Origin: Bolinopsis microptera
Taxonomy: Eukaryota > Ctenophora > Tentaculata > Lobata > Bolinopsidae
Direction: 5' to 3'
Assembly: GCF_026151205.1 (NCBI RefSeq)
Contig: NC_087079.1
Span: 3,863,230 to 3,927,229 of the forward strand
Length of the DNA: 64,000 bases
Both the position numbers and the translations under genes were made by a program. The notes under the pieces were generated by a model that was not told the origin of the DNA, did not search any database, and was given only the letters and a program-made list of their open reading frames with translations. Positions 3,980 through 64,000 of the stretch are shown here, one piece after another; position 1 is the stretch's first letter; every line of letters starts with the position of its first letter.

Positions 3980-6900
3980 TTGGATTCCATTTGGTTTCAG
4001 ATTCTGAACACAATGCACTAAATTCGAGCCATAAAAGTTCTCGACAAAATGGGAAAATCATATTCTCCCAAATATTGACCCATTTTTAGTTTTTGAATAC
4101 GAATTTTCCTGTGCCAAAATTTCACAGTTTTGACCGAATTCTTGTCTAGAAACCAATTAGTCAGTCAACTTTAGATGACATATGACACAATTGATGTGCT
4201 GGAAGTTTGATTCCGGTCGGAGGAAGCTTACTTCAGAAAGCTTTACAAAACGAAAATTCATATTTTCCAATTTCTGTCCCATTTTCAATTATGAAATTTT
4301 CTGAACAGAAATTTGACAGATTTGATGGATTTTTTGCCCAGTGACCAACTAGTCAGCTAACTGAGGATAGTATGAGACCAAATAGAGGTACTGGAAGTCA
4401 AAATCCCCGACAAAATGGGAAAACCATATTCTCGACGAATTTTCCTGGGCCGAAATTTCACAGTTTTGACCGAATTCTTGTCCAGATACCAATTAGTCGG
4501 TCAACTATAGATAGATGGCATATTTCCAACTTATCCCTCAAATCCTCTACTTTAACTACTCCCCAGACAAACCTATTTTACTCCACGTTCATCTCAAAAA
4601 AAAAGTAAAATACAATTTTTTTGTACTCAACTTTTTTCTTTGCATCATCAGCACTCCAACTCATCAGCATTGCTTGCCAAAATCATCACTCGTAATGATT
4701 TATAATTCTACGAAAATCAATTAATTTAACTATATAACTCTAGGTACAGCATGGTGATACCTTATCTTTTGATTTGTTCGGCAGTGTTAGTATCTGGCGT
4801 CAGCGTTTTCTTTCAGACTTCGTTTTTTGTCTGAACTGAAGAATAAAATATTACCTCTCGAATGATCAAAACTACATCAGAAATTGACCCTCAGAAGTCA
4901 AGTAATGGTCGTTTTCAAAAGCTTGGGTAAGCTAATATTGTTAGTTACGCTAAATGGGGATTTTCCTGGGCCGAAATTTCACAGTTTTGACTGAATTCTT
5001 GTCCAGAAACCAATTAGAAAGCTTTACAAAACGAAAATTCATATTTTCCAATTTCTGAACAGAAATTTGACATATTTGATGTATTTTTGCCCAGTGACCA
5101 ATAAATCAGCAAACTGAGGATAGTATGACACCAAATAGAGGTACTGGAAGTCAAAATCCTCGACAAAATGAGAAAATCATATTCTCCCAAATCTTTGAAG
5201 ACGAATTTTCCTGGGCCGAAATTTCACAGTTTTGACCGAATTCTGGTCCAGAAACCAATTAGTCGGTCATAGATGGCGTATGACACAATTGAGATGCTGG
5301 AAGTTTGATTCCTGTCGGAGGAAGCTTACTACAGAAAGCTTTACAAAACGAAAATTCATATCTTCCAATTTCTGTCCCATTTTCAACTTTTCAAATATGA
5401 AAATTTCTGAACAGAAATTTGACAGATTTGATGGATTTTTTGCCCAGTGACCAAGTAGTCAGCTAACTGAGGATAGTATGAGACCAAATAGAGGTACTGG
5501 AAGTCAAAATCCCCCGCAAAATGGGAAAATCATATTCTCCCAAATCTTGTCCCATTTTCAGTTTTTGAAGACGAATTTTCCTGGACTTTCACAGTTTTGA
5601 CCGAATTCTTGTCCAGAAACTAATTTGTCGGTCAACTATAATAGATGGCATATGACACAATTGATGTGCTGGAAGTTTGATTCCGGTCGGAGGAAGCTTA
5701 CTTCAGAAAGCATATGACACAATTGATGTGCTGGAAGTTTGATTCCGGTCGGAGGAAGCTTACTTCAGAAAGCTTTACAAAACGAAAATTCATATTTTCC
5801 AATTTCTGTCCCATTATTTTCCAATTTCAATTTTTTTGCCCAGTGACCAACTAGTCAGCTAACTGAGGATGGTATGAGACCAAATAGAGGTACTGGAAGT
5901 CAAAATCCCCGACAAAATGGGAAAATCATATTCTCCCAAATCTTGTCCCATTTTCTGTTTTTGAAGACGAATTTCCCTGGGCCGAAATTTCACAGTTTTG
6001 ACCGAATCCTTGTCCAGAAACCAATTAGTCTGTCAACTATAGATAGATGGCATATTTCTACACCTCAGACAAACCTATTTTACTCCACGTTAATCTCAAA
6101 ATGTCATCATTGGCATGTCCAGCTGCCAATTTTTTGTCCCATTTTCAACTTTTCAAATATGAAAATTTCTGAACAGAAATTTGACAGATTTGATGGATTT
6201 TTTGCCCAGTGACCAAGTAGTCAGCTAACTGAGGATAGTATGAGACCAAATAGAGGTACTGGAAGTCAAAATCCCCCGCAAAATGGGAAAATCGTATTCT
6301 CCCAAATCTTGTCCCATTTTCAGTTTTTGAAGACGAATTTTCCTGGACTTTCACAGTTTTGACCGAATTCTTGTCCAGAAACTAATTAGTCGGTCAACTA
6401 TAATAGATGGCATATGACACAATTGATGTGCTGGAAGTTTGATTCCGGTCGGAGGAAGCTTACTTCAGAAAGCTTTACAAAACGAAAATTCATATTTTCC
6501 AATTTCTGTCCCATTTTCAATTATGAAATTTTCTGAACAGAAATTTGACAGATTTGACGGATTTTTTGCCCAGTGACCAACTAGTCAGCTAACTGAGGAT
6601 GGTATGAGACCAAATAGAGGTACTGGAAGTCAAAATCCCCGACAAAATGGGAAAATCATATTCTCCCAAATCTTGTCCCATTTTCTGTTTTTGAAGACGA
6701 ATTTCCCTGGGCCGAAATTTCACAGTTTTGACCGAATCCTTGTCCAGAAACCAATTAGTCTGTCAACTATAGATAGATGGCATATTTCTACACCTCAGAC
6801 AAACCTATTTTACTCCACGTTAATCTCAAAACGTCATCATTGGCATGTCCAGCTGCATTGTCAACATTCCCTGCAAACTCAACTTTTTTCTTTGCACTGT

Positions 6901-11280: not shown

Positions 11281-12233
11281 TGTTAGGATACGTTAGTTTT
11301 AGTCTTTGTTCAGTCGAGTTCGGTCTGTTTTAGGCTATTTTAGGCTGTTACTGTTAGGTGATAGGTCTATTAAATCTAACCAGGTTTAGGTAATTCTTTT
11401 GTTGAGAATTGCTCAATCAATCCATTTTCTTGCACAATATAAAGCTAAAGAGAGCTAAAGCGTTATATAATCATCCAAGAGGAGCTAGATAATTTGGCCA
11501 AATTCAGACAAGCACAAAAGCAGCAATCTCAAATAAATGTCTACAAAATGTTATAATAGTGATACGATTATGTTATACTAAACAGTTTGTTCATATTTAT
11601 ACAATTTTAAACGATATTTTCTGCAGTTTGTTGTATTATTTATAAATTAAAAACTATGTTTAACATATCTTATTACATTTAAATGGATATCATTGTGCAT
11701 CATCTGATCAGCGTGGTATTAGTATACTCACAATAGTCCGGCCTTTAGTTACCACGGTGTTGAGTTTTTGCGATCCTTTTTGAACTGACTTTTGTCTTGC
11801 ACCCGTTCACACTCAGAGCTCTACGCACTGGGTATTTTTTGTTAGGAACCATTTATATAATAATATAATCGGCAATTTTCAGACCCCCTTCACTCGGAGA
11901 TTACATGATATATGTGAACCTTCTGTCCTTGTGTATAGCTGGAAATTTGGGCAACCACATTAGAATAAAGAAAATTTGTAATGGAATCAGCACAATGTAG
12001 ATGAGACTTTTTTGAATTAGAAACAGCAGAACGTGTAATTGTCAAATTTACCATGCCATAAAAGTGCTCGAATCTTGACCATAATCTGAAATATGGAAAT
12101 TTGTAAATTTCAACTTTTATGACGTCTAGGATATTGCATGCTATGTTCCTAGCATAAGCACCCCTGACTCCTAGAAATTTCCAGGAGTCAAAAGGAGCAC
12201 TTTGGTCTATCTAAATATAATAACTCAGGAACA
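11281..12233. other. Spacer between ATAD1-like gene and BTB array
   Basis: AT-rich, no coding signal. It should hold the ATAD1 3'UTR and the promoter of the first BTB gene. The last bases before the start are CTCAGGAACAATGGC, shared by the other BTB copies. Confidence 0.4.
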
Positions 12234-13841
12234 ATGGCTCCGAATGTGAGTGTACCAATGAATTTTGGTATCCGGTTACTGGACTCTCCAACCCACAGTA
12301 CCCTGGAACTAAAGGCAAGTCAGGGGGCAGTGATACCAGCCAGTTCAGTGATCCTATCTTTCAACAGTCCCGTGATAGATCACATGACCACAACTCTTCA
12401 TCTGACCAGTGTGGATATGGAGGAGTTCAGTGAGGATGCTGTGAGATATTTTATAGATGCTGCCTACTCGGGAGAGAGTCCACCAATATCTAGAGTTCTC
12501 TTTAGAGATATCAACAAATTAGCTAACGTGTTTGAAATGTCATGGCTGGTTACAAGATGTGTTGAACAGTTTGCTGATATTGCTGCAGCTATTAAAGAAC
12601 CGTCTTATGAAGATTTCTTCTTTTTGTTTGGAGAAGCTGCTTTTGTACTGACTAAACTCAAATCTCGAGAAATGGTTGAAATAGCTTTCACAAAGATTCA
12701 ATCCCTGAATGGACAACAAGATTTTATTAGCAGATACTTGGAAAACTTGTCCTATCTGTCTTGCAAACAGCTGGACATGATCATAGAACTTGCCGGAACT
12801 AAAGTTGAATTTGTTGTTAAACCTTTAACTGAACAACTTACAGCAAGTTTGTCTAAAGGAGAAACAGTTGTACCTGCTAACTGTAAATATCTTCTTGAGA
12901 ACTGTGAGTTGTATTTATGTCATCAGAACAACATTGAGATGTTTGAGAAACTGTTTGATGTATTGGAGAAGATTACCAATGAGTCCTTAGCTGATACGAA
13001 ATGGACATTTCAACTCCATAGAAAATCTCTTAAGAGGCGAGAAGATCCAACTAAATCTTTAGTTGGTTCCAGTGCCTCCACGGACCTTTTGAAGGATGTT
13101 AACGTTATACCAAACCTGTTCCACACATTGGACTGCAGTATGCCATTTGATGAAGTTGTTGATTGGTTGGGTAAATCAGAGCAAGTAACCAACTTGATGA
13201 AGTTTTTTGACGGATTGTGGACTTGGATGTTGGTAAATAAGGAAGTTAAAGTTGAGTGTACCAAACAGTTGGTAGACATCTTTTGTAGAATTAAAGAAAG
13301 AAGAATGTGGGATTCCTCTTATAACGGTTGGATTGTTAATTATATACAAAGTACTAATGTTAACGCCGATAGCTTCTTCCAGAACATAGGACATAACGAA
13401 ACATTATGCTCGGGCAGATTTTTTGCAAAGAAATGGGTACTCAAGGAGGAATTTCAAGCACATTACTCGCATAATAGTATTTGTTCAATCTTTTCCAAGG
13501 AAACAAAACTGATGTATCACTACAAACATCCTGCCGTAAAGAACTGTTACAATCAAGGAGAATGTGGTTTTATACTTAAAATTGTCCCTGCTAACGAAGG
13601 AGCTAACGTGGTACTATGCACTGACCCTAGTGATTATTCTGAAAAGGTACATTACCATGAGGCGTTTCAAACTAAAGATTTACATTTACTAGTTGTGAGT
13701 ACTTCCGTAAATAAGATTATTCCATTGAGCTGGTTTGGAAAACCTGAAATCAGAAACGGCCGAGTTAATTGGGATGAACTGAGCAAACTTCAAAGTAGCA
13801 AAGAAGACCTCCGTCTTTATGCAGTAATCAATTTGAAATAA
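12234..13841 (+). CDS. BTB/POZ domain protein, array copy 1
   Basis: Single-exon gene of 535 residues. The first ~120 residues read as a BTB/POZ fold (LELKASQGAVIPASSVIL, then VDMEEFSEDAVRYFIDAAY and VLFRDINKLANVFEMSWL), followed by a BACK-like helical stretch. Proteins of this layout often act as CUL3 adaptors; that role is inferred. The middle holds VVDWLGKSEQVTNL. The last ~150 residues form a conserved block with CGFILK.VPA, LCTDPSDYSEK.HYHE and a Ser-Trp-phe-Gly pattern that I cannot assign. A CAG acceptor-like site ends 5 bases before the ATG. The 5' ~370 bases are nearly identical to the three following paralogs while the rest differs widely. Confidence 0.82.
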   Translation: MAPNVSVPMNFGIRLLDSPTHSTLELKASQGAVIPASSVILSFNSPVIDHMTTTLHLTSVDMEEFSEDAVRYFIDAAYSGESPPISRVLFRDINKLANVFEMSWLVTRCVEQFADIAAAIKEPSYEDFFFLFGEAAFVLTKLKSREMVEIAFTKIQSLNGQQDFISRYLENLSYLSCKQLDMIIELAGTKVEFVVKPLTEQLTASLSKGETVVPANCKYLLENCELYLCHQNNIEMFEKLFDVLEKITNESLADTKWTFQLHRKSLKRREDPTKSLVGSSASTDLLKDVNVIPNLFHTLDCSMPFDEVVDWLGKSEQVTNLMKFFDGLWTWMLVNKEVKVECTKQLVDIFCRIKERRMWDSSYNGWIVNYIQSTNVNADSFFQNIGHNETLCSGRFFAKKWVLKEEFQAHYSHNSICSIFSKETKLMYHYKHPAVKNCYNQGECGFILKIVPANEGANVVLCTDPSDYSEKVHYHEAFQTKDLHLLVVSTSVNKIIPLSWFGKPEIRNGRVNWDELSKLQSSKEDLRLYAVINLK

Positions 13842-14477
13842 ACCATAGATGTCAAATATTTACATATTTACATATTTTGAAAGTGAAGTCCTTGTTCTAC
13901 AAAAAAGGTAAATACTCACTGAACATGAAAAGAATTAAAATATTAGAAGCTTATCCTCTGTACTATTTTGTTCAATCGAGATTCCATATATTATAATTTT
14001 TTAAAAAATAGTTTTATAAATCCTAGCATGCGCTTATATTGGCTTCCAACTTAATCATTGGTAAGTAAGCAGTAAGCAACTGTCTTGTCTAGTAAATAAG
14101 CTTTTGGATTCAATTTTTAATAACCTTTTTACTAGACAATATATGATATTTAAATCATTACTTTAAACGATAAATTTGTTACGTGATTGTTTAGTTGACA
14201 TGGCGGTGCAGTGTTGCACTTCTTTTTATTTTGATTGATTTAAGAACAGTTTTATAACAATTAAATGTACATAATCTGCTCTTTCTTATCTTTAAAGATA
14301 CAATATTTTCAACAATGCCTATGAGTGGAATTCTAGAGGATAGACTGATCGTTTTGTCATAGTTTATTTTTACCTTAACCAGTCGAACCTTAACCAGTCG
14401 AACCTGATCTATTAGTTTTCAATCCCGTTACTATTGTTATTGGCTTGGTTTATACTAATTTTCTTCACTCAGGAACA

Positions 14478-16112
14478 ATGGCTCCGAATGTGAGTGTACC
14501 AATGAATTTTGGTATCCGGTTACTGGACTCTCCAACCCACAGTACCCTGGAACTAAAGGCAAGTCAGGGGGCAGTGATACCAGCCAGTTCAGTGATCCTA
14601 TCTTTCAACAGTCCCGTGATAGATCACATGACCACAACTCTTCATCTGACCAGTGTGGATATGGAGGAGTTCAGTGAGGATGCTGTGAGATATTTTATAG
14701 ATGCTGCCTACTCGGGAGAGAGTCCACCAATATCTAGAGTTCTCTTTAGAGATATCAACAAATTAGCTAACGTGTTTGAAATGTCATGGCTGGCTACAAG
14801 ATGTGTTGAACAGTTTGCTGATATTGCTGCAGCTATCAAAGAGCCTTCCTATCAAGATTATTATTTTTTATTTGAGGAAGCTGCTTTTGTCCTTAGCAAG
14901 CTCAAGTCAAGACAGTTAGCTGAAATTGCCTTTACGAAAATAGGATTATTGAATGGACAAGATGGTTTTATCAGCAGGTATCTAGAAAACATATCCACTT
15001 TGTTTTTTCAACAGCTGGACTTGATAATAGAACTTGCTGGAACTAAAGTTGAGTTTGTTGTTAAACCTTTAACTGAACAACTTACAGCAAGTTTGTCTAA
15101 AGGAGAAACAGTTGTACCTGCTAACTGTAAATATCTTCTTGAGAACAGTGACTTGTATTTATGTCATCAGAACAACATTAAGATGTTTGAGAAATTGTTT
15201 GATGTGCTGGAGAAAATAACTAAAGAATCGTTCACTGAAACAAAGTGGACTCTACAACTAATTCGAAAGTCTGTGGTAAAGCGAGGAAGACAATCTAAAT
15301 CTTTAGTTGGTTCCAGTACCTCCACAGATCGTTTGGAGGACGTTAACATTGTACCAAACCTGTTCCACACATTAGACTACAGTATGACATTTGATGAAGT
15401 TGTTGATTGGTTGGGTAAATCAGAGCAAGTAACTAACTTGATAATGTTTTTTGAAGGTTTGTGGACTTGGATGTGGAAGAATAATAAGTTTAAAGTAGAA
15501 AGTTCTCCTCAGCTGCTGCAGTCAATTTACGAAATCAAAGAAAACAGGAAGTGGAATCGGTTTAGTCAACACTTGTTAAACTTCGACAGACGTGCATTTT
15601 ATAACAAAAGTTTTTTCAGGATTTTTAAATCTGACACACGTTTTTGTTCTTCAAACTATGAACGACAATATTGGATTTCCTATTCTTCACATTCTTCAAA
15701 TTCTTCCTACGGAAGCATCTCTTCTTTATTTGAAGTGAACACAAAAATTGAATGTCTTTGTGGACACCCTAATGCGGAAAATTGTTCTAAACCTGGAAAA
15801 TGTGGATTTATTCTAAAAACAGTTCCTGCTAAAGACGGAGCAAACATTAAACTCTGTACTGACCCTAGTGATTATTCTGAGAAGATACATTACCATGAGG
15901 AGTTTCAAGCTAAAGATATGCACTTTTCTATGTATAGACAATGTGGGGTTTTGTTTAGTAGCGTTTCATTAAGCTGGTGTGGTAGACCAGAATTCAAAAG
16001 CGGAAAGGTATGTTGGAATTTACCTTCAGATACAGATATAAACTATACACAAGGAGTATGGTATGTACGTGTATTAATTTCATTGAGAGATCACAATGCG
16101 TCCGGTACCTAG
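14478..16112 (+). CDS. BTB/POZ domain protein, array copy 2
   Basis: Single-exon paralog of 544 residues. An in-frame upstream start exists at 14445, but the ATG at 14478 is chosen because CAGGAACAATGGC is shared by all four copies. The BTB part matches copy 1 almost base for base up to about 14840. Identity then drops sharply and rises again at the block for ELAGTKVEFVVKPLTEQLTA and around VVDWLGKSEQVTNL. The C-terminal block keeps CGFILK, LCTDPSDYSE, HYHEEF and LSWCGRPE. The distal half is closer to copy 3 than to copy 1, including the stop region CGTCCGGTACCTAGA. The partner of the BTB domain is unknown. Confidence 0.82.
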   Translation: MAPNVSVPMNFGIRLLDSPTHSTLELKASQGAVIPASSVILSFNSPVIDHMTTTLHLTSVDMEEFSEDAVRYFIDAAYSGESPPISRVLFRDINKLANVFEMSWLATRCVEQFADIAAAIKEPSYQDYYFLFEEAAFVLSKLKSRQLAEIAFTKIGLLNGQDGFISRYLENISTLFFQQLDLIIELAGTKVEFVVKPLTEQLTASLSKGETVVPANCKYLLENSDLYLCHQNNIKMFEKLFDVLEKITKESFTETKWTLQLIRKSVVKRGRQSKSLVGSSTSTDRLEDVNIVPNLFHTLDYSMTFDEVVDWLGKSEQVTNLIMFFEGLWTWMWKNNKFKVESSPQLLQSIYEIKENRKWNRFSQHLLNFDRRAFYNKSFFRIFKSDTRFCSSNYERQYWISYSSHSSNSSYGSISSLFEVNTKIECLCGHPNAENCSKPGKCGFILKTVPAKDGANIKLCTDPSDYSEKIHYHEEFQAKDMHFSMYRQCGVLFSSVSLSWCGRPEFKSGKVCWNLPSDTDINYTQGVWYVRVLISLRDHNASGT

Positions 16113-16981
16113 ACGGGTTCTATGTTGTTCTCTGAAGCATGGTTTATAGTGTAAATTATAGTTTAATTAACCGGGAATGATATACTTTACAATACTTATG
16201 CATATTTTTAATGATCAGTAATATCTATGTGAAATTAAGAGAAGTAATCAATAGGCAAATATTCTGGTATAGTTCAATGTAACTGCGCACATAATCTTGG
16301 CTGTATCAAGTGTGTCAGAGGGAGGAAGGGAGGGAGGGAGGGAGGGAGGGAGGGAGGGAGGGAGGGAGGGAGGGAGGGAGGGAGGGAGGGAGGGAGGGAG
16401 GGAGGGAGGGAGGGAGGGAGGGAGGGAGGGAGGGAGGGAGGGAGGGAGGGAGGGAGGGAGGGAGGGAGGGAGGAGGGAGGGAGGGAGGGAGGGAGGGAGG
16501 GAGGGAGGGAGGGAGGGAGGGAGGGAGGGAGGAGGGAGGGAGGGAGGGAGGGAGGGAGAGATTATGATCAGCTCTTAATCTGAATATAACATGAATCTAT
16601 GGTTTTAGAACGTTTTAGTACGGTTTTTATGGTTTTAGGATGTTTTAGTACGGTTAGATGAATAAGATTTTTTTAAATAAATGTATGTATGTCAGATGAT
16701 TACAATGATGTCATAAAATCATTTCATTGCCTTTGTTTTTTCCTCGCTTTTCCGTAAGACAACATCACACATTGGTACAGATTCATTCAGTATAATCTTG
16801 AAAGTCCTTTTTTTGCCGAATAATTTGCATATGTTTTGCAGCAAAACACATATATAAGTAAATTGGCATTATATTCAACAATATACATAAATTATTAGAC
16901 AATAGGAGCAAAACTTGTCCACCTATAGTTCTAATTATTTAATTATATTGTGGAATATTTTATTGATTTAACCCAGGAACA
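16113..16981. other. Spacer between BTB copies 2 and 3
   Basis: Homologous to the spacer at 18602-19253 (shared stretches such as ATAGTGTAAATT near the start and AACATCACACA near 16765), but enlarged by a GGGA microsatellite. This insertion accounts for the difference between the 2504-base spacing of copies 2-3 and the 2272-base spacing of copies 3-4. Confidence 0.7.
16319..16559. repeat. (GGGA)n microsatellite
   Basis: About 240 bases of nearly pure GGGA with a few GGA interruptions. The Gly-Arg-Glu open frames it creates are not genes. Such purine runs can form triplex or G-rich structures. Confidence 0.97.
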
Positions 16982-18601
16982 ATGGCTCCGAACGTGAGTG
17001 TACCAATGAATTTTGGTAGTCGGTTACTGGACTCTCCAACCCACAGTACCCTGGAACTAAAGGCAAGTCAGGGGGCAGTGATACCAGCCAGTTCAGTGAT
17101 CCTATCTTTCAACAGTCCCGTGATAGATCACATGACCACAACTCTTCATCTGACCAGTGTGGATATGGAGGAGTTCAGTGAGGATGCTGTGAGATATTTT
17201 ATAGATGCTGCCTACTCGGGAGAGAGTCCACCAATATCTAGAGTTCTCTTTAGAGATATCAACAAATTAGCTAACGTGTTTGATATGTCATGGCTGGCTA
17301 CAAGATGTGTTGAACAGTTTGTTGATATTGCTGCAGCTATTAAAGAACCCTGTTATGAAAACCTTTTATTCCTGTTTGACGAGGCCGAATTTGTCCTGTC
17401 CAATCTGAAATCTCGAGGAATGGTTGAGATAGCTTTGACTAAGATTCAATCCCTGAATGGACAACAAGATTTTATTAGCAAATATCTAAAAAACATATCC
17501 ACTTTGTCTTCTCAACAGCTGGACTTGATCATAGAACTGGCTGCAACTAAAGTTGAGTTTGTTGTTGAAGCTTTAACTGAACAACTTACAGCAAGTTCGT
17601 CTAAAGGAGAAACAGTTGTACATGTTAACTGTAAATATCTTCTTGAGAACAGTGAGTTGTATTTATGTCATCAGAACAACATTCAGATGTTTGAACAACT
17701 GTTTGATTCACTCGAAAGATTAGCTGTTGGCTCGTATAAACATATGAGTTGGGTATTTCAACTTCTCAGAAAGTCACTTAGAAAAGGAGAGCTTTCTCCT
17801 CCAAAGCACGCAGATTTAGTTCCACGCGAAGACATTCATGCAATTCCGAACTTGTTCCACACATTAGATTGCAGTATAACACTTGATGAAGTTGTTGATT
17901 GGTTGGGTAAATCAGAGCAAGTAACTAACTTGATGATGTTTTTTGAGGGATTGTGGACTTGGATGTGGAAGAATAAAGAGTTTAGAGTAGAAAGCTCTCC
18001 TCATCGGTTGCAAACAATCTATAAAGTCAAAGAAAACAGGAAGTGGAATCGGATTATGGATCACTGGTTAAACTTTGATAGACATGACTTTCAAAAAAGT
18101 AGTTTTTTCGGGATTATTAAAGCTGATCGCAGATTTTGCTCCTCCGCATACGAAAAGGATCGATGGATTTCTCTGAACGGTCAAATTCATTCTTTTTCAG
18201 GTGGCCAGTATTCAAGCATCCTTCTTTTATTCGAAAAGGAAGCGAAAGTGGCGCTCGTTTGTTCAACTACAGTGAATAATTGCTCTAAACCAGGAAAATG
18301 TGGATTTATTCTAAAAAAAGTTCCTGCTAAAGACGGGGCAAACATTAAACTATGTACGGATCCTAATGATTATTCTGAGATAATACATTACCATGAGGAG
18401 TTTCAAGCTAAAGATATGCACTTTTCTATGTATACGATGAAGAATAAATTTACTAACGTTCCATTAAGCTGGTGTGGTAGACCAGAATTTAAAAGCGGAA
18501 AGGTATGTTGGAATTTACCTTCAGATATGAACTGTACACAAGGAATATGGATTGTACACTTATTAATTTCATTGAAAGATGACAATGCGTCCGGTACCTA
18601 G
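16982..18601 (+). CDS. BTB/POZ domain protein, array copy 3
   Basis: Single-exon paralog of 539 residues with the same order: BTB (about 1-120), BACK-like region, linker with WLGKSEQVTNL, and the Cys/His-rich C-terminal block (CGFILKKVPAKDGAN, LCTDPNDYSE, LSWCGRPE). The 5' block differs from copies 1, 2 and 4 by only a few bases. The C-terminal half is closest to copy 2 (ESSP, NRKWNRI, HYHEEFQAKDMHFSMY). Start chosen by the shared CCAGGAACAATGGC context. Confidence 0.82.
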   Translation: MAPNVSVPMNFGSRLLDSPTHSTLELKASQGAVIPASSVILSFNSPVIDHMTTTLHLTSVDMEEFSEDAVRYFIDAAYSGESPPISRVLFRDINKLANVFDMSWLATRCVEQFVDIAAAIKEPCYENLLFLFDEAEFVLSNLKSRGMVEIALTKIQSLNGQQDFISKYLKNISTLSSQQLDLIIELAATKVEFVVEALTEQLTASSSKGETVVHVNCKYLLENSELYLCHQNNIQMFEQLFDSLERLAVGSYKHMSWVFQLLRKSLRKGELSPPKHADLVPREDIHAIPNLFHTLDCSITLDEVVDWLGKSEQVTNLMMFFEGLWTWMWKNKEFRVESSPHRLQTIYKVKENRKWNRIMDHWLNFDRHDFQKSSFFGIIKADRRFCSSAYEKDRWISLNGQIHSFSGGQYSSILLLFEKEAKVALVCSTTVNNCSKPGKCGFILKKVPAKDGANIKLCTDPNDYSEIIHYHEEFQAKDMHFSMYTMKNKFTNVPLSWCGRPEFKSGKVCWNLPSDMNCTQGIWIVHLLISLKDDNASGT

Positions 18602-19253
18602 ATGGGTTCAATTTTATTCTCTGTAGCATGGTTTATAGTGTAAATTTTTATTTAATTAACCGTTAATGATGTACTTTACAATACTTATGCATATTTTTAA
18701 TGATCAGTTATATCTATTTGACATCAAGAAGATTAATCAATAGGCAAATATTCTGGTATAATTCAATGTAACTGCGCACATAATCTAATTACCAGTTAAC
18801 AAAGAACCTTATTAGGCTGTACCAAGTGTGTGAGAGAGAGAGATTACGATCAGCTCTTAATCTGAATTTAGCGTGAATTTATGGTTTTAGAACGTTTTAG
18901 TACGGACTACGGTTAGATGAATGAGATTTTTGAAATAAATGTTTATTATTAAATGTCAGATGATTACAATGAAGTCATGAAATCATTTCATTGCCTTTTT
19001 TTTAGTTTTGTCTTCCTCGCTTTTCCGTAAGACAACATCACACACTGGTACAGATTCATGCAGTATAATCTTGAAAATCCTTTTTTTGCCGATTTATTTG
19101 CATTATATGTTTTGCAGCAAAACACATATAAATAAATCGGCATATTCAACAATACAAATCAATTATTAGAATAATAGGAGCAAAAATTGTCCTCCTATAG
19201 TTCTAATGATTTATTTATATTGTGGAATATTTGATCTATTTAACCCAGGAACA
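18602..19253. other. Spacer between BTB copies 3 and 4
   Basis: A duplicate of the 16113-16981 spacer without the GGGA expansion; a short GAGAGA run near 18833 sits at the equivalent place. No gene is seen. Confidence 0.65.
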
Positions 19254-20846
19254 ATGGCTCCGAATGTGAGTGTACCAATGAATTTTGGTATCCGGTTACT
19301 GGACTCTCCAACCCACAGTACCCTGGAACTAAAGGCAAGTCAGGGGGCAGTGATACCAGCCAGCTCAGTGATCCTATCTTTCAACAGTCCCGTGATAGAT
19401 CACATGACCACAACTCTTCATCTGACCAGTGTGGATATGGAGGAGTTCAGTGAGGATGCTGTGAGATATTTTATAGATGCTGCCTACTCGGGAGAGAGTC
19501 CACCAATATCTATAGTTCTCTTTAGAGATATCAACAAATTAGCTAACGTGTTTGAAATGTCTTGGCTGGCTACAAGATGTGTTGAACAGTTTGCAGATAT
19601 TGCTGCAGCGATTAAAGAACCTTCTTATGAAAACCTTTTATTCCTGTTTGACGAGGCCGAATTTGTCCTGTCCCACCTGAAATCTCGACAAATGGTTGAG
19701 ATAGCTTTGACTAAGATACAATCCCTGAATGGACAGCAGGGTTTCATCAGGATATATCTAGAAAACATAAATTCTCTGTCTTGCCAACAGCTAGACTTGA
19801 TAATAGAACTGGCTGGAACTAAAGTTGAGTTTGTTGTTAAACCTTTAACTGAACAACTTACAGCAAGTTTGTGTAGAGGAGAAACAGTTTTATCTGCTAA
19901 CTGTAAATATTTTCTTGAGAACTGCGACTTGTATTCATGTCAACAGAAACAAAATTCCGTGTTTGTGCAACTGTTTGACGAATTGCAGAAAATAACTGAT
20001 GAATCATTTACTGATACGAAATGGATTTTTCATCTTTATAGGAAGTCATCTGAGAAAAGAGAAATCGGACAAAAAGCTCTTGAATCATCGTCGGCAATTA
20101 ATATTTATGAGGACATTCATGCAATTCCGAACATATTCCAAACATTAGACTGCAGTATGACATTTGATGCCGTTGTTGATTGGTTGGGTAAATCAGAGCA
20201 AGTAACTAACTTGTTGATGTTCTTTGAAGGTTTGTGGACTTGGATGTGGGTCAATAAAAATGCACAAGTTGAGTGTACGGCACAATTTTTAGATAGGGTT
20301 CGTGCAATTAAAAATAATAGAAATTGGGACTCCTTTTGCAGCCGTTGGTCACTTTACGTCAATAATTTAAATATTAACGCAGACCAGTTTTTCAAAACCA
20401 TGAGAAAGGATGATCAGTTATGTTCCAACGATAATAAATGGGGTATAGCAATGAGCAATCAAGTTCAACCGATTTCGCATAATATTTGCTCAATATTTAC
20501 TAACGCAACAAAGTTGATGTTTCACTACAAAAACCCTGCAAAGAATTGTTCCAAATCAGGGAAATGTGGCGTAATCTTAAAAACTGTTCCTTCTAAAGGA
20601 GGAGCTAACATGATACTATGCACTGATCCAAGTGATTATTTGGAAGATATACATTACCATGACGAGGTCGATGCCAAAGACATGCATTTTCTAGTGAAGT
20701 GTAAAAATAAGAATGATCGTATCATTCCATTGAGTTGGTTAGGAAGACCAGTTTCCAAAAATGGTCAGCTTATTTTGAACCTGCTAGATGCGCCTACGCT
20801 TATGAACGAAGAACACTGCAAATTTTTCATTTTGGTGAAGCAATAG
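19254..20846 (+). CDS. BTB/POZ domain protein, array copy 4
   Basis: Single-exon paralog of 530 residues. The ATG at 19254 is chosen over an in-frame start at 19206 because of the shared CCAGGAACAATGGC context. The BTB segment is nearly identical to the other copies. The C-terminal block is the most divergent, reading CGVILKTVPSKGGAN, LCTDPSDYLED and LSWLGRPVS; its NADQFF stretch is closer to NADSFF of copy 1. So the four C-termini fall into pairs (1 with 4, 2 with 3) while the 5' ends are alike. AATAAA follows at 20906. Confidence 0.82.
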   Translation: MAPNVSVPMNFGIRLLDSPTHSTLELKASQGAVIPASSVILSFNSPVIDHMTTTLHLTSVDMEEFSEDAVRYFIDAAYSGESPPISIVLFRDINKLANVFEMSWLATRCVEQFADIAAAIKEPSYENLLFLFDEAEFVLSHLKSRQMVEIALTKIQSLNGQQGFIRIYLENINSLSCQQLDLIIELAGTKVEFVVKPLTEQLTASLCRGETVLSANCKYFLENCDLYSCQQKQNSVFVQLFDELQKITDESFTDTKWIFHLYRKSSEKREIGQKALESSSAINIYEDIHAIPNIFQTLDCSMTFDAVVDWLGKSEQVTNLLMFFEGLWTWMWVNKNAQVECTAQFLDRVRAIKNNRNWDSFCSRWSLYVNNLNINADQFFKTMRKDDQLCSNDNKWGIAMSNQVQPISHNICSIFTNATKLMFHYKNPAKNCSKSGKCGVILKTVPSKGGANMILCTDPSDYLEDIHYHDEVDAKDMHFLVKCKNKNDRIIPLSWLGRPVSKNGQLILNLLDAPTLMNEEHCKFFILVKQ

Positions 20847-54484: not shown

Positions 54485-55547
54485 GTTATTGGGTTCTGAC
54501 AGTTTTTATTTTGTCTTTCACTCCTTAAAATACGAATGGAGATTAAAATTCGCTAAACTTAGATATATGACTGTGGGATATTTAAATGTAAAGTATAGTC
54601 AGAATCATATGAATCATATTCCATCCAAAGGAATATGATTCAACTCTTTATTTTGATAAGTAAGTTTACTCTTTTAAATACTAGTATTTGGTGTAATTCT
54701 AACTTTTTGAATCTGTTCACAGGAAATATTTCCATGTCAAATCGGGACACAAGATCACAATCTGTAAAAGATGAAGTGAAGACTGAGATTCTGGACCATG
54801 TTATCAAGAAGGAGATAAAGACTGAGCTACAGGAAGTCAACGGGAAGTCACATGGTTTTATTTGTCCCACATGTAAAGCTCATTTCCTTTACGATGAGTT
54901 CTTTATTGAACATATTAAAGAACATCATGAGGATGTGGCTAGTAAAAGGATAAATTCTAATGAGCTATTGAGTTCTTCTGGAATATCAGAAAAAGATAAC
55001 AATTCAAAGAATACCCTGCATAGAAGTGAACCTTTTAAATGTGATGTTTGTTCCTTTTCTTGCTCCTACGAATCTCATCTTCTGAGACATCGGAGAATTC
55101 ATACTAATGAAAAGCCATTCAAATGTGAACAGTGCTCATCTGCTTATTCTCGAAAATGTAATCTAATCCGACATCAGCGAATTCACACAGGGTACAATCC
55201 CTACAAATGCAGCGATTGTAAATATACAAGCTCTTCTAAATCAAATCTAGTCTTACATCAGCGAATCCACACCGGTGAGAAACCCTACAAGTGCGATGAA
55301 TGCTCATTTGCTTTCACTCAAAAAGGTAGTCTAGTTAACCATCAGAAAATTCACACAGGTGAGAAACCCTACAAGTGTACAGAATGTTCATATGCTTCTT
55401 CTATAAAATGTAATCTAGTCCAACATCAGAAAGTTCACACTAATGAAAGACCATTCAAGTGTGAACAGTGTTCATATGCTTCTTCTCGTAAACGCCTTCT
55501 AGTTTTACATCAGCGAATTCACACTGGTGAGAAATCCTACAAGTGTA

Positions 55548-58328
55548 CCGTAATCTGGGGTAACTTTGGCCGGTGGGGTAACATTGGTCCAGCATTGAAT
55601 TCCAAGTTTGGGTGTAAACTGTGTGCAGTATAATCAAGTTACATTGTTATCATTGGTTTAAATGATTTGTTTACTCTCTTCTACTCACTTCCTAGTGTTA
55701 TCCTTCCATTTAGTGTACACTGGTACGACTGTAGATCATTATGATTCACCCTTCCTTCGTTTCATCCAAATTGTGTGTTGTCAAAATGGGTCACTTATTT
55801 CATTTCCTGATGTTCTTGCTATTGTTTTGTATTGTTCTATTGATAATTGATTGTTTAAATTGTTTAACTAGCCCAAATTCAGTCGACTGATGTTAAGGCA
55901 ATTACTGTTAATTGGGGTGGCCAATGTTACCCCTGGAAAATTTGAACTTTGGGGCAACTTTGGCCAGGCCAAATTTGCCCCATGGGGTAAATTTGGCCAT
56001 GCCAATGTTGCCCGAAAATAACTTTTTTCTGATTTAATTTCTCTTAGAAATGGTTAGAACCTACCAGAGTAAGAAACCCGGTTCAAGAGGCTATGTTACC
56101 TACTCTGAGGAGACCCTAGAGAAATGCTTGGAAGCTGTCAGGTCTGGCAAGCTCTCACAAAGAAAAGCAGCTCAACAGTTCAACATAGCGAGGAGCACCA
56201 TTCAGAACAAAGTCAAAGGAACGCACAGCAGACCAATCGGGCGGGGCTGTGTCTTCTCTGAAGAAGAGGAGAAGCTGTTCACGGCTCGAATCATAACCAT
56301 GTGTGATTGGGGCTTCCCTATTGGTTTTATGGACCTTAGGATGCTCATATCGTCTTATTTGAAGAAGCAAAGGAGAGTGGAGATTCGATTCAAAGAAAAT
56401 GTGCCAGGAGATGACTGGGTAAGAGGCTTTATAAAACGAAATAAGCTAGCAAACCGTTTAGCCTCGAACATAAAAAGAAGTAGAGCCCAAATATCAAAGG
56501 AAGCTCTTGAACGGTATTTCAACCATCTTAAAAATGAGCTGGAAGGTGTCCCTGCATCAAACATTTGGAACTACGATGAGACAAACCTGACGGACGATCC
56601 TGGTAAGAAAAAATTCATCATGAGAAGGGGGACAAAATATCCTGAGAGGGTTATGAACCACAGTAAAGTGGGAATTTCGATTATGTTCTGTGGTAATGCT
56701 GATGGGCAGATGCTTGACCCATACACTGTTTATAAGGCAAAGAATATGTATCCAGCCTGGATGCAGGGTGGCCCTCCAAATGCCCGCTATGGTTACTCTG
56801 ATTCGGGTTGGTTCGAAGAACGCTCATTCGAGGACTGGTTTTTCTCGCTCGCGCTACCCAGACTAAGGAGGCTTGATGGCAAGAAAGTCCTTATCGGCGA
56901 CAATTTGAGTTCCCATCTCAGTGTAAAGGTAATTGAGGCCTGCAAAGCAAATGACATTTCGTTTATATGTCTTTACCCTAATGGCACCCACCTTCTTCAG
57001 CCACTTGATGTGTCTTACTTTGCACCACTGAAGAAAGCCTGGAAGCATGTTCTTGGTAAATGGAAACTTACTCCCGAGGGGAGACAGCAGGGAACACTTA
57101 ATAAGAAGCAATACCCTCGACTGCTTGCTAAGCTGATTGCAATTCTAGCTTCTGAGAATGGTCCCGAAAATCTCAAGAGTGGTTTCAGGAAATGTGGTCT
57201 TGTACCTTTTGAGCCTGAACAAGTTTACAAGAGCTTGCCCTCTACTGCTTCCAATGAACTTGAACCAACTGAAGCCCTCGACTCATCCCTTCTTGAAGCA
57301 CTGAAAGAGCTGAGGGGTAATAATGCAGAGCTTCCTAAGACGAAAAAAGTGTCCAAGAAGAACAGACTTCATCTGAGTCCAGGTAGGTCAGTCAGTTTGG
57401 TAGAGATACCTGTCGCCACTTCCACCCCACAGCCCATTCCTTCTGGTGTTGATTCTCCAAAATCATCGAAGGAACCAAAATCAAAGACAAAGAAAACCAG
57501 AGGGAGAAAGAAGAATACTGTTTTGAACACAGTCCCTGACTTCGCCACTTCCACCCCACAGCCCATCCCTTCTGGTGCTGATTCTCCAAAATCATCGAAG
57601 GACACAAAATCAAAGACAAAGAAAACCAGAGGGAGAAAAAAGAAGGACACTGTTAAGAACACAGTCCCTGACTCTAACCTTGTGAATCACAAAAGTCAGG
57701 ACTATGTGATTGTGGAATATGAAGGCTCATCATTTCCTGGTCAGATTATCAGTGTTGATGACAATGATGGGGCAGTTGTTTACAGAGTAAGCTGCATGCA
57801 AAAGTATGCAGGCGGAAAAGGCTGGGTTTGGCCAGAAATTGCAGACATAGAGGAGTATCAGGAGGTTAAATCAACCATGAGCCTTTGGTGATAAGCACCC
57901 GGAACACAGGTCGATTCAGAGTCCCCGAACTTGAATCGATCTGGGATAGGCATCTGTAATCGTCAGATATATTCTATGTTCAATGCTAAAAATCATTTTA
58001 TGATAACTGTCTATTTATTTGTTACTTTGGATCGCTTATTTTGATGCATTTATCAACAAATAAACGTGTTATGGGGGTAACTTTGGCCGGCCAAAGTTGC
58101 ACCAGATACATGAGGCCAAAGTTGCCCCTTGCGTGGGTAACTTTGGGCCAGTGATAATTAGTCTGTAATTAGTCATTAATAAATGAGTTACATGATTTTA
58201 AATTGATTAATCCTGTAGTACACATATCAGGGAATGATAAAAACATAACAGTCATCAATTTCAACCAGTCATCTCTGAAAAATTTGAAGTGCCAAAAAAA
58301 ATTGGCACAAAGTTACCCCAAATTACGG
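55548..58328 (+). mobile_element. Complete pogo/Tigger-type DNA transposon inserted at TA
   Basis: A 2781-base element. The left end is CCGTAATCTGGGGTAACTTTG; the right end on the reverse strand is CCGTAATTTGGGGTAACTTTG, one mismatch in 21. TA flanks both sides (55546-55547 and 58329-58330). Subterminal copies of GGGGTAACTTTGGCC and its variants lie at 55913-56015 and 58075-58150 in both orientations, a likely transposase-binding array. It contains one full transposase gene. Confidence 0.95.
56050..57891 (+). CDS. Pogo/Tigger-type transposase
   Basis: Intact frame of 613 residues. Order: psq-type helix-turn-helix (about 15-60, with SQRKAAQQFNIARSTIQNKV), CENP-B-type HTH (about 75-150, ending WVRGFIKRNKLANRLASNIKRSRA), then the DDE catalytic domain. 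Catalytic acids fit D176 (NYDETN), D284 (IGDNLSSH) and D320 (LQPLDVSYF); the last two have 35 residues between them, as in the pogo group. Residues about 455-540 hold a 43-residue unit present twice (STPQPIPSG ... KTKKTRGRKK), each with an AT-hook-like basic core. A last block (VIVEYEGSSFPGQIISVDDN ... KGWVWPE) looks like a separate small fold. All motifs are present, so the copy may be active. Confidence 0.93.
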   Translation: MVRTYQSKKPGSRGYVTYSEETLEKCLEAVRSGKLSQRKAAQQFNIARSTIQNKVKGTHSRPIGRGCVFSEEEEKLFTARIITMCDWGFPIGFMDLRMLISSYLKKQRRVEIRFKENVPGDDWVRGFIKRNKLANRLASNIKRSRAQISKEALERYFNHLKNELEGVPASNIWNYDETNLTDDPGKKKFIMRRGTKYPERVMNHSKVGISIMFCGNADGQMLDPYTVYKAKNMYPAWMQGGPPNARYGYSDSGWFEERSFEDWFFSLALPRLRRLDGKKVLIGDNLSSHLSVKVIEACKANDISFICLYPNGTHLLQPLDVSYFAPLKKAWKHVLGKWKLTPEGRQQGTLNKKQYPRLLAKLIAILASENGPENLKSGFRKCGLVPFEPEQVYKSLPSTASNELEPTEALDSSLLEALKELRGNNAELPKTKKVSKKNRLHLSPGRSVSLVEIPVATSTPQPIPSGVDSPKSSKEPKSKTKKTRGRKKNTVLNTVPDFATSTPQPIPSGADSPKSSKDTKSKTKKTRGRKKKDTVKNTVPDSNLVNHKSQDYVIVEYEGSSFPGQIISVDDNDGAVVYRVSCMQKYAGGKGWVWPEIADIEEYQEVKSTMSLW

Positions 58329-58707
58329 TACAGAATGTTCATATGCTTCTTCTCTAAAATGTAATCTAGTCCAACATCAGAAAGTTCACACTAATGAAAG
58401 ACCATTCAAGTGTGAACAGTGCTCATATGCTTGTTCTCTGAAAGGTAATCTAGTGAAACATCAGCGAATTCACACAGGTGTGAAACCCTACAAGTGTGGA
58501 GAATGTTCATATGCTTCTTCTCTAAAATGTAATCTAGTCCAACATCAGAAAGTTCACACTAATGAAAGACCATTCAAGTGTGAACAGTGCTCATTTGCTA
58601 GTTCTCAAAAAGGTAATCTAGTCCAACATCATCGAATTCACACAGGTGTGAAGCCTTACAAACGCAGTGACTTGAATACGACAGCCCTTCTAAATCAAAT
58701 CTTATAA

Positions 58708-59019: not shown

Positions 59020-61055
59020 AGGACCAGTTAACTGAAAAATTTGTAGTCTCCAATTTGGCTAAGATTTAAATCAGCTGTGACAAACTGGTAAAGAATCGTA
59101 TCGCCGAAAGAACCAACTCTCTAGCGTACGTGTAACGCGTGTTATTGCAATAATAAGCTGTGGCCGCGTTACGTCATAAAGTCCCTCAGTGCGCGCTTGC
59201 ATAGCGTAATACAATGCACAAATGTTTATCATCGTCAATAAAACACGTGTAACTCACTCAAATTTTAGAGTTATGACTATTTCCCTAGTTCTACAAAATC
59301 CTTATAGTTTTGGCTATCACCCTAACTATATGAATAGCTGATTGGATGTACAGTGCTCACGTCAGGATTTTAAACAGTGACATAAGTTCTTGAACAGTGG
59401 CGGGTGAATGTACGGTTAGAAAGTTTCTGCTATTACAAGTTATGTCATATGTGATAATTTTGGATTGTTTTCATTGCTTCATTACAAACGAAGGGAGACT
59501 GTACCGATTATTTTTCCCCAGTACATGAAACTAATACACAAAATAATGTGCTATATATTAAATATAGCTGATCAGAGTGTAACTCTGTAATATAATATTA
59601 CAGTTGTTCGGAAGAATGCGAGCAGTCGAATGGTTCGCTGTAAAAGACATAGTTCCGAGAGCAATTATATTTTTAGCATAGCGAAATTTCTAACTTTAAT
59701 CCACACGTGCCAGACAGTACAGGAGACAAGAAGTCTGGCTATTTTACGGCCGTTCCCATGGGACCATTAGTAGAAGTAGCTCCTATCAGAACGGTGCCGT
59801 GGGAACCGAAAAATACCCGGTCTACTAAATACTGATTGGAGTGTACAGTGTGCGGAGTGTTTTGAATTTGACTTACCTAGTTATCGTCCTACTTGTATGA
59901 TCATAAAATTAAATACCAATTAGTGCAAACGTGTTCAGTCAATCGACCCACTGAACAACTATAGAATTTCCAAGACCCTATTATTCTTTGGCCATATATA
60001 TTACGGCACGATCGATTCTTAGATGGCTAAACGACAAACGTTAATCTATACAATTCTTAAACTATGAGATAGCACTTTAATTTAAAAATACACTTTTTAT
60101 ATTACTCCTGATTTTTACATTTAAATTTTCACGTAAAACATTGTAGCCATAGGTTGATCATGGACACTGACAGCTTAATTTTAGATAATAATGATTTATG
60201 AGTTTCTCTAAAGTTAACTCTAAACTTGTGTAGTCCAGTCATTTATGGACATTTATGGAATTGAACCTGCAAATTTTCGTATACTCACGAAATTTTGCAA
60301 AGACCTTCCCAAAAGTATGAATAAAGGATTTTCGGTTGGAGACATATTGACCACGCCGATATTGACCCAATAACGTAACCGACCCTTTGCTTCTGAAGGT
60401 CGTGGAGACTTCAAAATAGGCTTAAACGAAGCCGCATATGCAAGTTTATATAGGAGTTATTGAGCAACACATGGCCTAAAATCCTTACTTTTCGAGAAAT
60501 TCGCCAAAAACCATTTTGGGCGTGGTGCTGAGCCCATTTTCGATAGGATCGTGATAGAGTCTTTAGACAGGGTGCAAAAGAACCGCAATTAGCATATTAA
60601 TATATGACTTACGAAGAAACAGATGCCTTAAAGTGCATACTTTTTCAGTTATTGGCGAAAAACTGATTTCCGGTTCCAGAAATCATGCAAAAATATGGGT
60701 ATCTCGTAAATTGGGCTATGAAGGCCAAACAGATTTTTGAATGAGTGCAAATTGTGCAGAATGGCCATGTTTATATACAACTTATGAAGCAACATGTACC
60801 CTAAAACACTTACTTTTCGAGTTATTTGGGGGAGAAACATTGTATTATGTCCATTTTTACCTGTAAAATACAGTCTCACGAGCTGCTCTGTGCGCGCAAG
60901 GGACTTTATGACGTCATCGCCAAAATAATACAAACGCTAATTACACGCGTTAGAGAGCAGTTAGAGATTTAGGAATTTCGACTCGTTGCTCAGTTTGCTA
61001 TTTGTCACAATCTGTCAAAATATGAGGATAACTTTTTTTTCAGTTAACTGGTCCT
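59020..61055. mobile_element. 2 kb TTAA-flanked TIR element, non-autonomous
   Basis: Terminal repeats AGGACCAGTTAACTGAAAAA are identical for 20 bases at both ends, flanked by TTAA (59016-59019 and 61056-61059). Weaker inverted similarity goes in for about 200 bases, including a GTCATAAAGTCCCT match near 59173 and on the reverse strand near 60905. TTAA target sites are typical of piggyBac and Kolobok groups. No transposase frame is seen; the interior has short AT-rich frames only. Confidence 0.87.
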
Positions 61056-61930: not shown

Positions 61931-64000
61931 ATGGCTGACCGTGACAAAATGGGAAGAAATCATAGCTGTGATACTGATGAGAAGGTTTGTTTATCATTGC
62001 TAGCGCTATAATTTTATAATAAAGTTTGGTAAAATATGACAGTTGAATTATTTTAGAGGCTTAGTAGGTAAATGTTGCAATATCTAGACCATCTAGAGAG
62101 TTATTAATTAGTTTGTACCTAAAAATAATAACGACATGGACCCCCAAAATTATTGTGCACATTTTCTTAAACAAAATTATTTTGCACGTTTTTCTTAAAC
62201 ATGACGCTCTCTAGTAGTATACCTTGTTTTACACATTATAGTTCTAGTGAATAGATTTTCACTCCGCAGGATTTGGGTTTGACAGTTGGGCAGCAGGTGA
62301 CTGCTAATCCTTTTCGGGATAAGATAGAGTACCAAGCAACCATCCTACGCTGCGTTAAGGTATGCACAATAATAATAATATTAAGTACTTTTTGTGAGAC
62401 TTTTTGTGAGACCATTTTATTCCACTTGTTGTCCAGGCGACTGGCTTGAAACCTAACCAATTTTTAATGACAATATTCATAATAAGATAGTGCAAATTAT
62501 TTACACTTATTTCAGAGGGGCATCTTTGAACTACAGTTCGATGATGTTTGCTGCAACGTGTCTAGAAAATATATAAAGCTGATAACAGGTGAGATATGTA
62601 TACTATCGGCTAGGCCTCCTTTTAAAATAAAAATTGGGTAAATGAGTTAACAATTTTGCGATCGTTGAATTAAAAGTAAAACGTGTTATTATCAGTTTAG
62701 ACCTTTAAACCTTTAGACATTTATTGACAAATAACTGTAAATGTAATATAGTTTTTAAGTTTATGTATGAATTGTTTCCAAATTTCAAGAAACATATGCA
62801 TTTCAGATCAAACGACAGACGAGACCGGATCTGTAATGGATGGTCCAGCTGAAGACAAGACCAGATCTTTAATGGATGGTCCAGCTAAAGACGAGACTGG
62901 ATCTGTAATGGATGGTCCAGCTGAAGACGAGACTGGATCTGTAATGTGTGGTCCAGCTGAAGACGAGACTGGATCTGTAATCGATGGTCCAGCTAAAGAC
63001 GAGACCGGATCTGTAATGAATGGTCCTGCTGAAGACGAGACCGGATCTGTAATGTGTGGTCCAGCTGAAGACGAGACTGGATCTGTAATCGATGGTCCAG
63101 CTGAAGACGAGACCGGATCTGTAATGAATGGTCCTGCTGAAGACGAGACCGGATCTGTAGTGGATGGTCCAGCTGAAGACGAGACCGTATCTGTAATGGA
63201 TGGTCCGGCTGAAGACAAGACCGGATCTGTAATAAATGGTCCTGCTGAAGACGAGACCGGATCTGTAATGGATGGTCCTGCTGAAGACGAGACCGTATCT
63301 GGAATGGGTGGTCGAGCTGAAGACGAAACCGGATCTGTAATGGATGCTCCGGCTGAAGGCAAGACCGGATCTGTAATCGATGGTCCAGCTGAAGATAAGA
63401 CCAGATCTGTAATAAATTGTCCTGCTGAAGACAAGACCGGATCTGTAATGAATGGTCCTGCTGAAGACGAGACCGGATCTGTAATGGATGGTCCTGCTGA
63501 AGACGAGACCGTATCTGTAATGGGTGGTCGAGCTGAAGACGAAATCGGATCTGTAATGGATGGTCCGGCTGAAGGCGTGACCGGATCTGTAATAAATGGT
63601 CCAGCTAAAGACGAGACCGGATCTGTAATGGGTGGTCCAGCTGAAGACAAGACCGGACCTCGAGAAAACGACAATAAAGCTAATAAGCAAATGAGTTATT
63701 CTGGAATTTTAGAGAAAGAGAACAATTCAAAAAAAAACCCATATGAAGGTAAACCATTTGAATGTAATGTTTGTTCCTTCTCTTCCTCCTCCGAACCTCT
63801 TCTTCAGAAACATCTTCTGAAACATCTTCTGAAACATCAGAGAGTTCATACTAAAGAAAAACCTTTCGAGTGTGAACAGTGCTCATATGCTTGTTCTTAT
63901 AAACATCATCTAGTTTTACATCAGCGTATTCACACTGGTGAGAAGCCCCACAAGTGCAATGAATGCTCATATGCTTGTGCTCAAAAAAGTGGTCTAGTCC
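61931..64000 (+). CDS. Zinc-finger protein with Tudor-like N-terminus and 12-residue repeats, partial
   Basis: Proposed exons are 61931-61984, 62270-62359, 62516-62588 and 62807 to beyond the window, all GT-AG with matching phases. Exons 2-3 encode a small barrel-like unit ([20 protein letters not shown], then [22 protein letters not shown]) that resembles Tudor or chromo-barrel folds; this assignment is tentative. Exon 4 opens with about 23 copies of a 12-residue repeat ([12 protein letters not shown]), then a linker ([14 protein letters not shown]) matching SSSGISEKDNNSK of the gene at 54734, then C2H2 fingers from about 63757 ([24 protein letters not shown]). The first finger has LLKH doubled by a 12-base repeat. 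The 3' end is outside the window. Long minus-strand frames across the repeat are shadows. Confidence 0.75.
62810..63660 (+). repeat. 36-base coding tandem repeat
   Basis: About 23 copies of a 36-base unit (GACGAGACCGGATCTGTAAT then GGATGGTCCAGCTGAA), kept in frame as 12 residues. Variation is mostly at a few positions (Met/Ile, Asp/Asn/Gly/Cys, Pro/Arg, Glu/Lys). Confidence 0.95.

Follow-up and report, generated by a model that had tools for sequence, protein, structure and literature searches.

What became of a zinc-finger gene of the ctenophore Bolinopsis microptera whose coding exon now holds a complete transposon, and is the insertion a recent one? The locus lies in a stretch of 64,000 nucleotides (NC_087079.1, positions 3,863,230 to 3,927,229 of the forward strand), which is referred to as the window and whose own numbering is used here. 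The gene belongs to a duplicated family of ctenophore C2H2 zinc-finger genes, and we are highly confident that a pogo cut-and-paste element has inserted at a TA in its coding exon. The questions of when it arrived, what it does to the gene, and how it relates to other pogo elements are taken up in turn.

The element and the exon it interrupts

The element proper occupies 55548-58328 on the + strand, a length of 2,781 bp, and is defined by its terminal inverted repeats (TIRs), a TA target-site duplication and a transposase gene. A preliminary description of this DNA had placed it at 55541-58340, an interval that does contain it together with a few flanking bases. The two 21-bp TIRs, CCGTAATCTGGGGTAACTTTG on the left (55548-55568, + strand) and CCGTAATTTGGGGTAACTTTG on the right (58308-58328, - strand), are mismatched at 1 of 21 positions, the same count as was reported earlier, and a TA stands on both sides (55546-55547 and 58329-58330, strand not assigned). 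With up to three mismatches allowed, the only TIR matches in the window are the element's two ends, against a mean of 0.00 in 100 shuffles. Each end also carries a subterminal array of a GGGGYAACTTTGGCC-like motif in both orientations, with 7 copies on the left (55557-56014) and 5 on the right (58074-58319), the last of which overlaps the right TIR. At the same tolerance 12 of the 14 matches to this motif in the window fall inside the element, and none of 100 shuffles reaches 14. In the 264.65 Mb of genome searched, where this and all later search counts are lower bounds, exact GGGGYAACTTTGGCC was found at 4 sites, every one within the window element, and the reversed control gave 0. The motif copies are natural candidates for transposase binding sites. 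Base composition, considered as a sign of foreign origin, is uninformative, as the element has 42% G+C and the window 38%; G+C at third codon positions is 0.45 in the element and 0.48 and 0.36 in two host frames.

The transposase is encoded at 56050-57891 on the + strand, the same strand as the host gene, in an uninterrupted frame of 613 amino acids (aa) plus stop. Near its N-terminus is an HTH_psq domain (56104-56220, + strand; aa 19-57), one of the DNA-binding types listed for the pogo superfamily, which scores 43.5 bits against a cut-off of 20.4 (E 2.6e-11). The DDE_1 endonuclease domain (PF03184) follows at 56674-57114 on the + strand, where the Pfam match covers aa 209-355 with 70 bits against a cut-off of 22 (E 2.4e-19). 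An acidic triad assigned by eye, D176, D284 and D320, gives the spacing DD35D; D176 precedes the Pfam match, and the same acidic residues align in a second pogo-like family of this genome, described below. A search of solved structures returned a single match, the psq domain of LCoR (E 0.0017). The earlier statement that the transposase is intact agrees with the unbroken frame, in which both domains are present.

The interrupted gene is split into a 5' part of its exon at 54734-55547 (+ strand), with 7 finger pattern matches, and a 3' part at 58331-58707 (+ strand), with the rest of the split finger, 3 more fingers, a degenerate last finger and the stop. In the present allele the frame reads on into the element and ends at a stop at 55631-55633, so that the truncated frame (54734-55633, + strand) encodes 299 aa, the last of them supplied by the element. 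Joining the two exon parts so that a single TA remains gives an open frame of 396 aa, which reads GEKSYKC-TECSYASS across the join. The joined frame has 11 matches to C..C(12)H(3)H, made up of the 7 before the insertion, the split one and the 3 after it; the insertion TA spans the boundary of a Cys and a Thr codon, and in the eighth match this point falls between the pair of cysteines. Two further claims of the preliminary description hold up: a pogo element, recognised here by DDE_1 with DD35D, a TA duplication and short TIRs, does sit inside a C2H2 exon, and its removal at one TA does restore the frame.

How might the insertion have come about, and what would it do? On this reading the element inserted at the TA inside a TGTACA of the coding exon, its target being one member of a C2H2 family that has duplicated both locally and segmentally. 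The psq helix-turn-helix of the transposase would bind the TIRs and the subterminal motif arrays, and the DDD active site would excise the element, with reinsertion at a TA. Unless the element is lost or spliced around, the host gene would make at most a truncated protein of 7 finger matches with a transposon-encoded tail.

An inverted duplicate and the age of the insertion

Is the insertion young, as the preliminary description proposed? That proposal rested in part on the near identity of the TIRs. A DNA transposon may already carry TIRs that differ from each other when it inserts, and TIR similarity alone is therefore no clock. Better grounds come from elsewhere: about 45 kb off, the locus is present a second time as an inverted duplicate. 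The inverted repeat as a whole measures 57 kb and runs from window position ~52286 onward and from C8:3972944 downward; the duplicate-arm sequence compared ends 90 bases beyond C8:3972944. When matches of at least 85% identity and at least 200 columns are taken, the two arms share five collinear blocks, with identities of 98.0, 91.1, 90.6, 96.8 and 95.2%. The duplicate carries the same finger gene and the same WD-repeat neighbour gene, whose protein looks like DPH7. The transposon is missing from it: no 40-mer sampled from the transposon is present in L054, a 9.5-kb stretch of the duplicate, and the joined-site 14-mer AAGTGTACAGAATG is found there at 5355-5368. Among three candidate fingers in the duplicate, the finger with this joined site has the best right flank, matching at 204 of 220 bases.

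Since the duplicate lacks the element and holds the joined-site sequence, the local inverted duplication most likely came first and the insertion after it. The flanks differ little. On the WD-gene side 9 of 833 sites differ between the arms, with 2 gap columns, and in the 3' stretch outside the finger array 2 of 285 aligned sites differ, with 9 gap columns. The first part of the finger exon, a stretch that reaches into the first fingers, has 18 differences in 520, and an overlapping block has 15 in 444 with 12 gap columns. The proposal of youth is thus supported by the duplicate and its flanks, evidence that the preliminary description did not have. The duplicate also offers a natural before-and-after comparison for a coding insertion. 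It calls for care as well: in a polymerase chain reaction, primers sited in the fingers could pick up the duplicate, which lies at C8:3966756-3968677, near 3.967 Mb, and so report a false empty allele.

Several observations weigh against so simple an order of events. The joined-site finger of the duplicate matches at only 77 of 100 bases on its left flank, a global alignment pairs the insertion with the neighbouring finger instead, and the AAGTGTACAGAATG 14-mer is common in the finger cluster, where 12 of 75 loci have it, several of them overlapping. Because the finger arrays have been reshuffled, the exact counterpart of the split finger appears uncertain, and it is therefore conceivable, if not the simplest reading, that the duplicate once had the element and lost it through turnover of the array. 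The array blocks on either side of the insertion are only 91.1% and 90.6% identical, with fingers gained and lost between the arms, and gene conversion could blur the order of events and with it any clean date. The duplicate finger gene has two in-frame stops, in its first standard and its last complete finger, so that both copies of the gene look damaged. As for mobility, any present activity of the element is at best putative, as its nearest relatives in this genome are no more than fragments.

Might the supposed duplicate instead be the empty allele itself, a second haplotype of this locus that was inverted and misjoined in the assembly? The outer arm is 98.0% identical over 2,284 columns, which is within the range of two haplotypes of an outbred marine animal, and several insertions differ between the arms. 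Further in, the resemblance falls off: the inner zinc-finger genes differ more, one pair for example being 86.8% identical (3935241-3936379 versus 3960579-3959432), and have different finger arrays, as fits paralogues, and the finger exon itself is 91.1% identical between the arms. Because the inner finger genes differ more, we consider a misassembled haplotype unlikely, though it is the alternative to be taken most seriously.

It is very improbable that the element is an old, fixed insertion followed by dead sequence. The last downstream finger is indeed degenerate, and few sister copies of the element are found in the genome. The degenerate finger and its stop, however, are common to the interrupted gene and the element-free duplicate, and the decay therefore predates the insertion. 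The element is absent from the duplicate, even though divergence between the copies, in parts beyond the finger array, amounts to only about 1-3.5%. The four finger matches that begin with the split one retain their Cys and His residues.

Least probable of all is that the insertion is removed as a new intron and a near-complete finger protein is still made, for although the linker before the insertion holds a donor-like G/GTGAGA, and 55526 joined to a TACAG acceptor at the element's right edge (58334) leaves the frame open to the natural stop, that product would be without the split finger's first cysteine and the linker, the acceptor looks weak, with few pyrimidines by eye in the sequence leading up to it, and the donor-like sequence is the ordinary code of such finger linkers.

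Insertion into one arm after duplication is thus the order that we favour, and other elements have also come to occupy the region. Just downstream of the pogo element, window 59020-61055 is taken up by another DNA transposon, 2,036 bp long. Its inverted ends read AGGACCAGTTAACTGAAAAA and its target-site duplication is TTAA, from which sign we take it to be piggyBac-like. Its empty TTAA site is found at the duplicate locus, and its left end recurs at 98-100% identity in at least 38 other places in the genome, 40 of 373 candidates having been scored. The other arm has insertions of its own, at 834-2824 and 5049-6418 of the reverse complement of L054. They are a 2-kb element, which has ends GGGCGATTTCA and TGAAATTGCCC and separates the WD gene from the finger gene, and a reverse transcriptase frame that, by eye, resembles those of long interspersed nuclear elements. 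At window 62808-63695 and beyond is a repetitive frame, a 12-residue repeat when read antisense, and a similar repeat precedes fingers in one open frame of the other arm; both of these descriptions were made by eye.

Relatives in the genome and among pogo families

Does the element belong to a populous family? A DNA search of the genome found at least one full copy, that of the window, and at least two pieces on C12. The first piece has 19 differences in 365 aligned bases (14 nonsynonymous, 5 synonymous, and one gap), the second 4 in 251 (2 nonsynonymous, 2 synonymous), and both stop short of the TIRs. The earlier suggestion to look for other copies with the same TIRs yielded nothing beyond background: with up to three mismatches there are 10 sites, two of them the element's own ends, against 12 for the reversed control. 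A high-copy family, or one of miniature inverted-repeat transposable elements, is thus unsupported, given one full copy, two pieces and TIR sites no commoner than in the control. Sites on C4 and C11 have similar end sequence, but no exact 14-base inverted repeat was found in the 3 kb around either. Searches of a viral collection and of a bacterial and archaeal collection, which reach close relatives only, found no relatives of the element.

More distant relatives are present. A protein search of the genome with the transposase gave at least 10 stretches, of which one is the element itself and three lie on the two C12 pieces; the matches include, at 32% identity, a long open frame on C1 and another on C13. 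These represent a second pogo-like family (C1:22243791-22245674 and C13:9480976-9482859), whose two copies differ at 18 of 2,489 aligned sites, with 7 gap columns. Like the window element this family has HTH_psq and DDE_1, with 33% aa identity over 418 columns, and a repeated GGGGTAA-type motif near its left end; the motif repeated there is, unlike that of the window element, GGGGTAAAACGGACC. With its protein as query at least 18 stretches of the genome were found, 10 of them with stops, and among them the window element and one C12 piece. Judging from these sequences, pogo-like transposases are residents of the genome in several lineages, many of them decayed, which argues against contamination.

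Where does the element stand among known pogo families? Its membership of the pogo superfamily, a known one, is supported by the TA duplication, the TIRs, DDE_1 with its DDD triad, and the N-terminal helix-turn-helix. The covered sections of Gao et al. 2020 (PMC7386202) give the superfamily a TA duplication, short TIRs, DDE_1 with DDD and an N-terminal helix-turn-helix, and the element's length and protein size fall within the ranges published there. It departs from that account in pairing HTH_psq alone with a TA duplication and in its dense subterminal arrays in two orientations, of which those sections make no mention that we found. Fot and Fot-like elements are described there as having HTH_psq and DD35D, both seen in the window element. 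Most Fot elements, however, have a TAA duplication and Fot-like elements TAAA, whereas the window element has TA, a minority state in Fot (PMC7386202, same sections). The Passer family, according to the covered part of the 2023 Passer paper (PMC9976928), shares DD35D, the TA duplication and TIRs under 30 bp with the window element, yet its intact transposases have 400-500 aa, in contrast to the 613 here. Passer also has BrkDBD and/or HTH_Tnp_Tc5 (PMC7386202, in the parts covered), and Tigger/pogoR has CENP-B_N and/or HTH_Tnp_Tc5. None of CENP-B_N, HTH_Tnp_Tc5 and BrkDBD was listed for the window transposase in a Pfam search with a limit of E 10, a limit at which the HMMER filters drop most matches above about 0.1.

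The host and the pogo host range

Elsewhere in the window, at 12168-20846, are four tandem frames starting at 12168, 14394, 16967 and 19170, presumably BTB-like, whose N-terminal thirds are nearly identical and whose C-terminal parts are more diverged, by eye as if homogenised at one end only. The genome has a large set of photoprotein-like genes of the bioluminescence type. A search with an approximate aequorin sequence as probe found at least 56 matches, of which 55 have no stop and 51 cover the probe almost from end to end, at C1 22.00 Mb, C2 11.25-11.27 Mb, C3 3.4 and 3.8 Mb, C5 17.01-17.03 Mb and C13 11.08-11.09 Mb. Many are arranged in tandem, usually about 0.94-1.03 kb apart. One of them (L075) matches berovin at E 1e-118 and mnemiopsin at 2.1e-117, against 1.2e-18 for obelin, the best hydrozoan match; as the closest relatives are thus ctenophore photoproteins, the host is a ctenophore.

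What has been reported of pogo in this phylum? Gao et al. 2020 (PMC7386202), in the sections covered, surveyed the hosts of the whole superfamily phylum by phylum and gave pogo as absent, among invertebrates, from Ctenophora and Cephalochordata; in its host, then, the window element is at odds with that account. The survey, as those sections describe it, set its tBLASTn cut-off at 1e-100 and excluded truncated elements, and a divergent lineage could therefore have escaped it. The covered parts of two narrower accounts also place Ctenophora outside the hosts they list, a 2022 survey for the Tigger family only and the 2023 paper (PMC9976928) for Passer only. The word 'Ctenophora' was not found in the main text of Dupeyron et al. 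2020. Among titles and the beginnings of abstracts, a coverage that takes in few subscription journals and not Repbase, we found no report of a ctenophore pogo, nor was one found in the covered parts of the Mnemiopsis genome papers or of a choanoflagellate transposon survey. Transposons and C2H2 proteins of ctenophores have been noted in other connections. In the portions covered, a study of transposon-derived factors describes FLYWCH expansions in ctenophores, and a chromatin-loop study reports that, of the M. leidyi promoters found in distal loops, over 90% contain DNA transposon insertions; that study also names C2H2 tethering proteins specific to ctenophores.

What, then, does the locus mean? 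That a transposon should land in a single gene of a redundant finger cluster is in itself ordinary; what stands out is the host, as the window element appears to add Ctenophora to the phyla that host a known superfamily. A complete, uninterrupted ctenophore pogo, together with distant, partly decayed kin, would change the map of pogo hosts at the base of the animal tree. A broader proposal might equally well prove right or wrong: that at least two HTH_psq lineages of pogo have recently been mobile in ctenophores, that the window copy, nearly solitary and intact, is a recent arrival, perhaps through horizontal transfer, and disables one gene of a fast-duplicating C2H2 cluster, and that the inverted empty copy nearby could serve as a template for repair after the element is excised.

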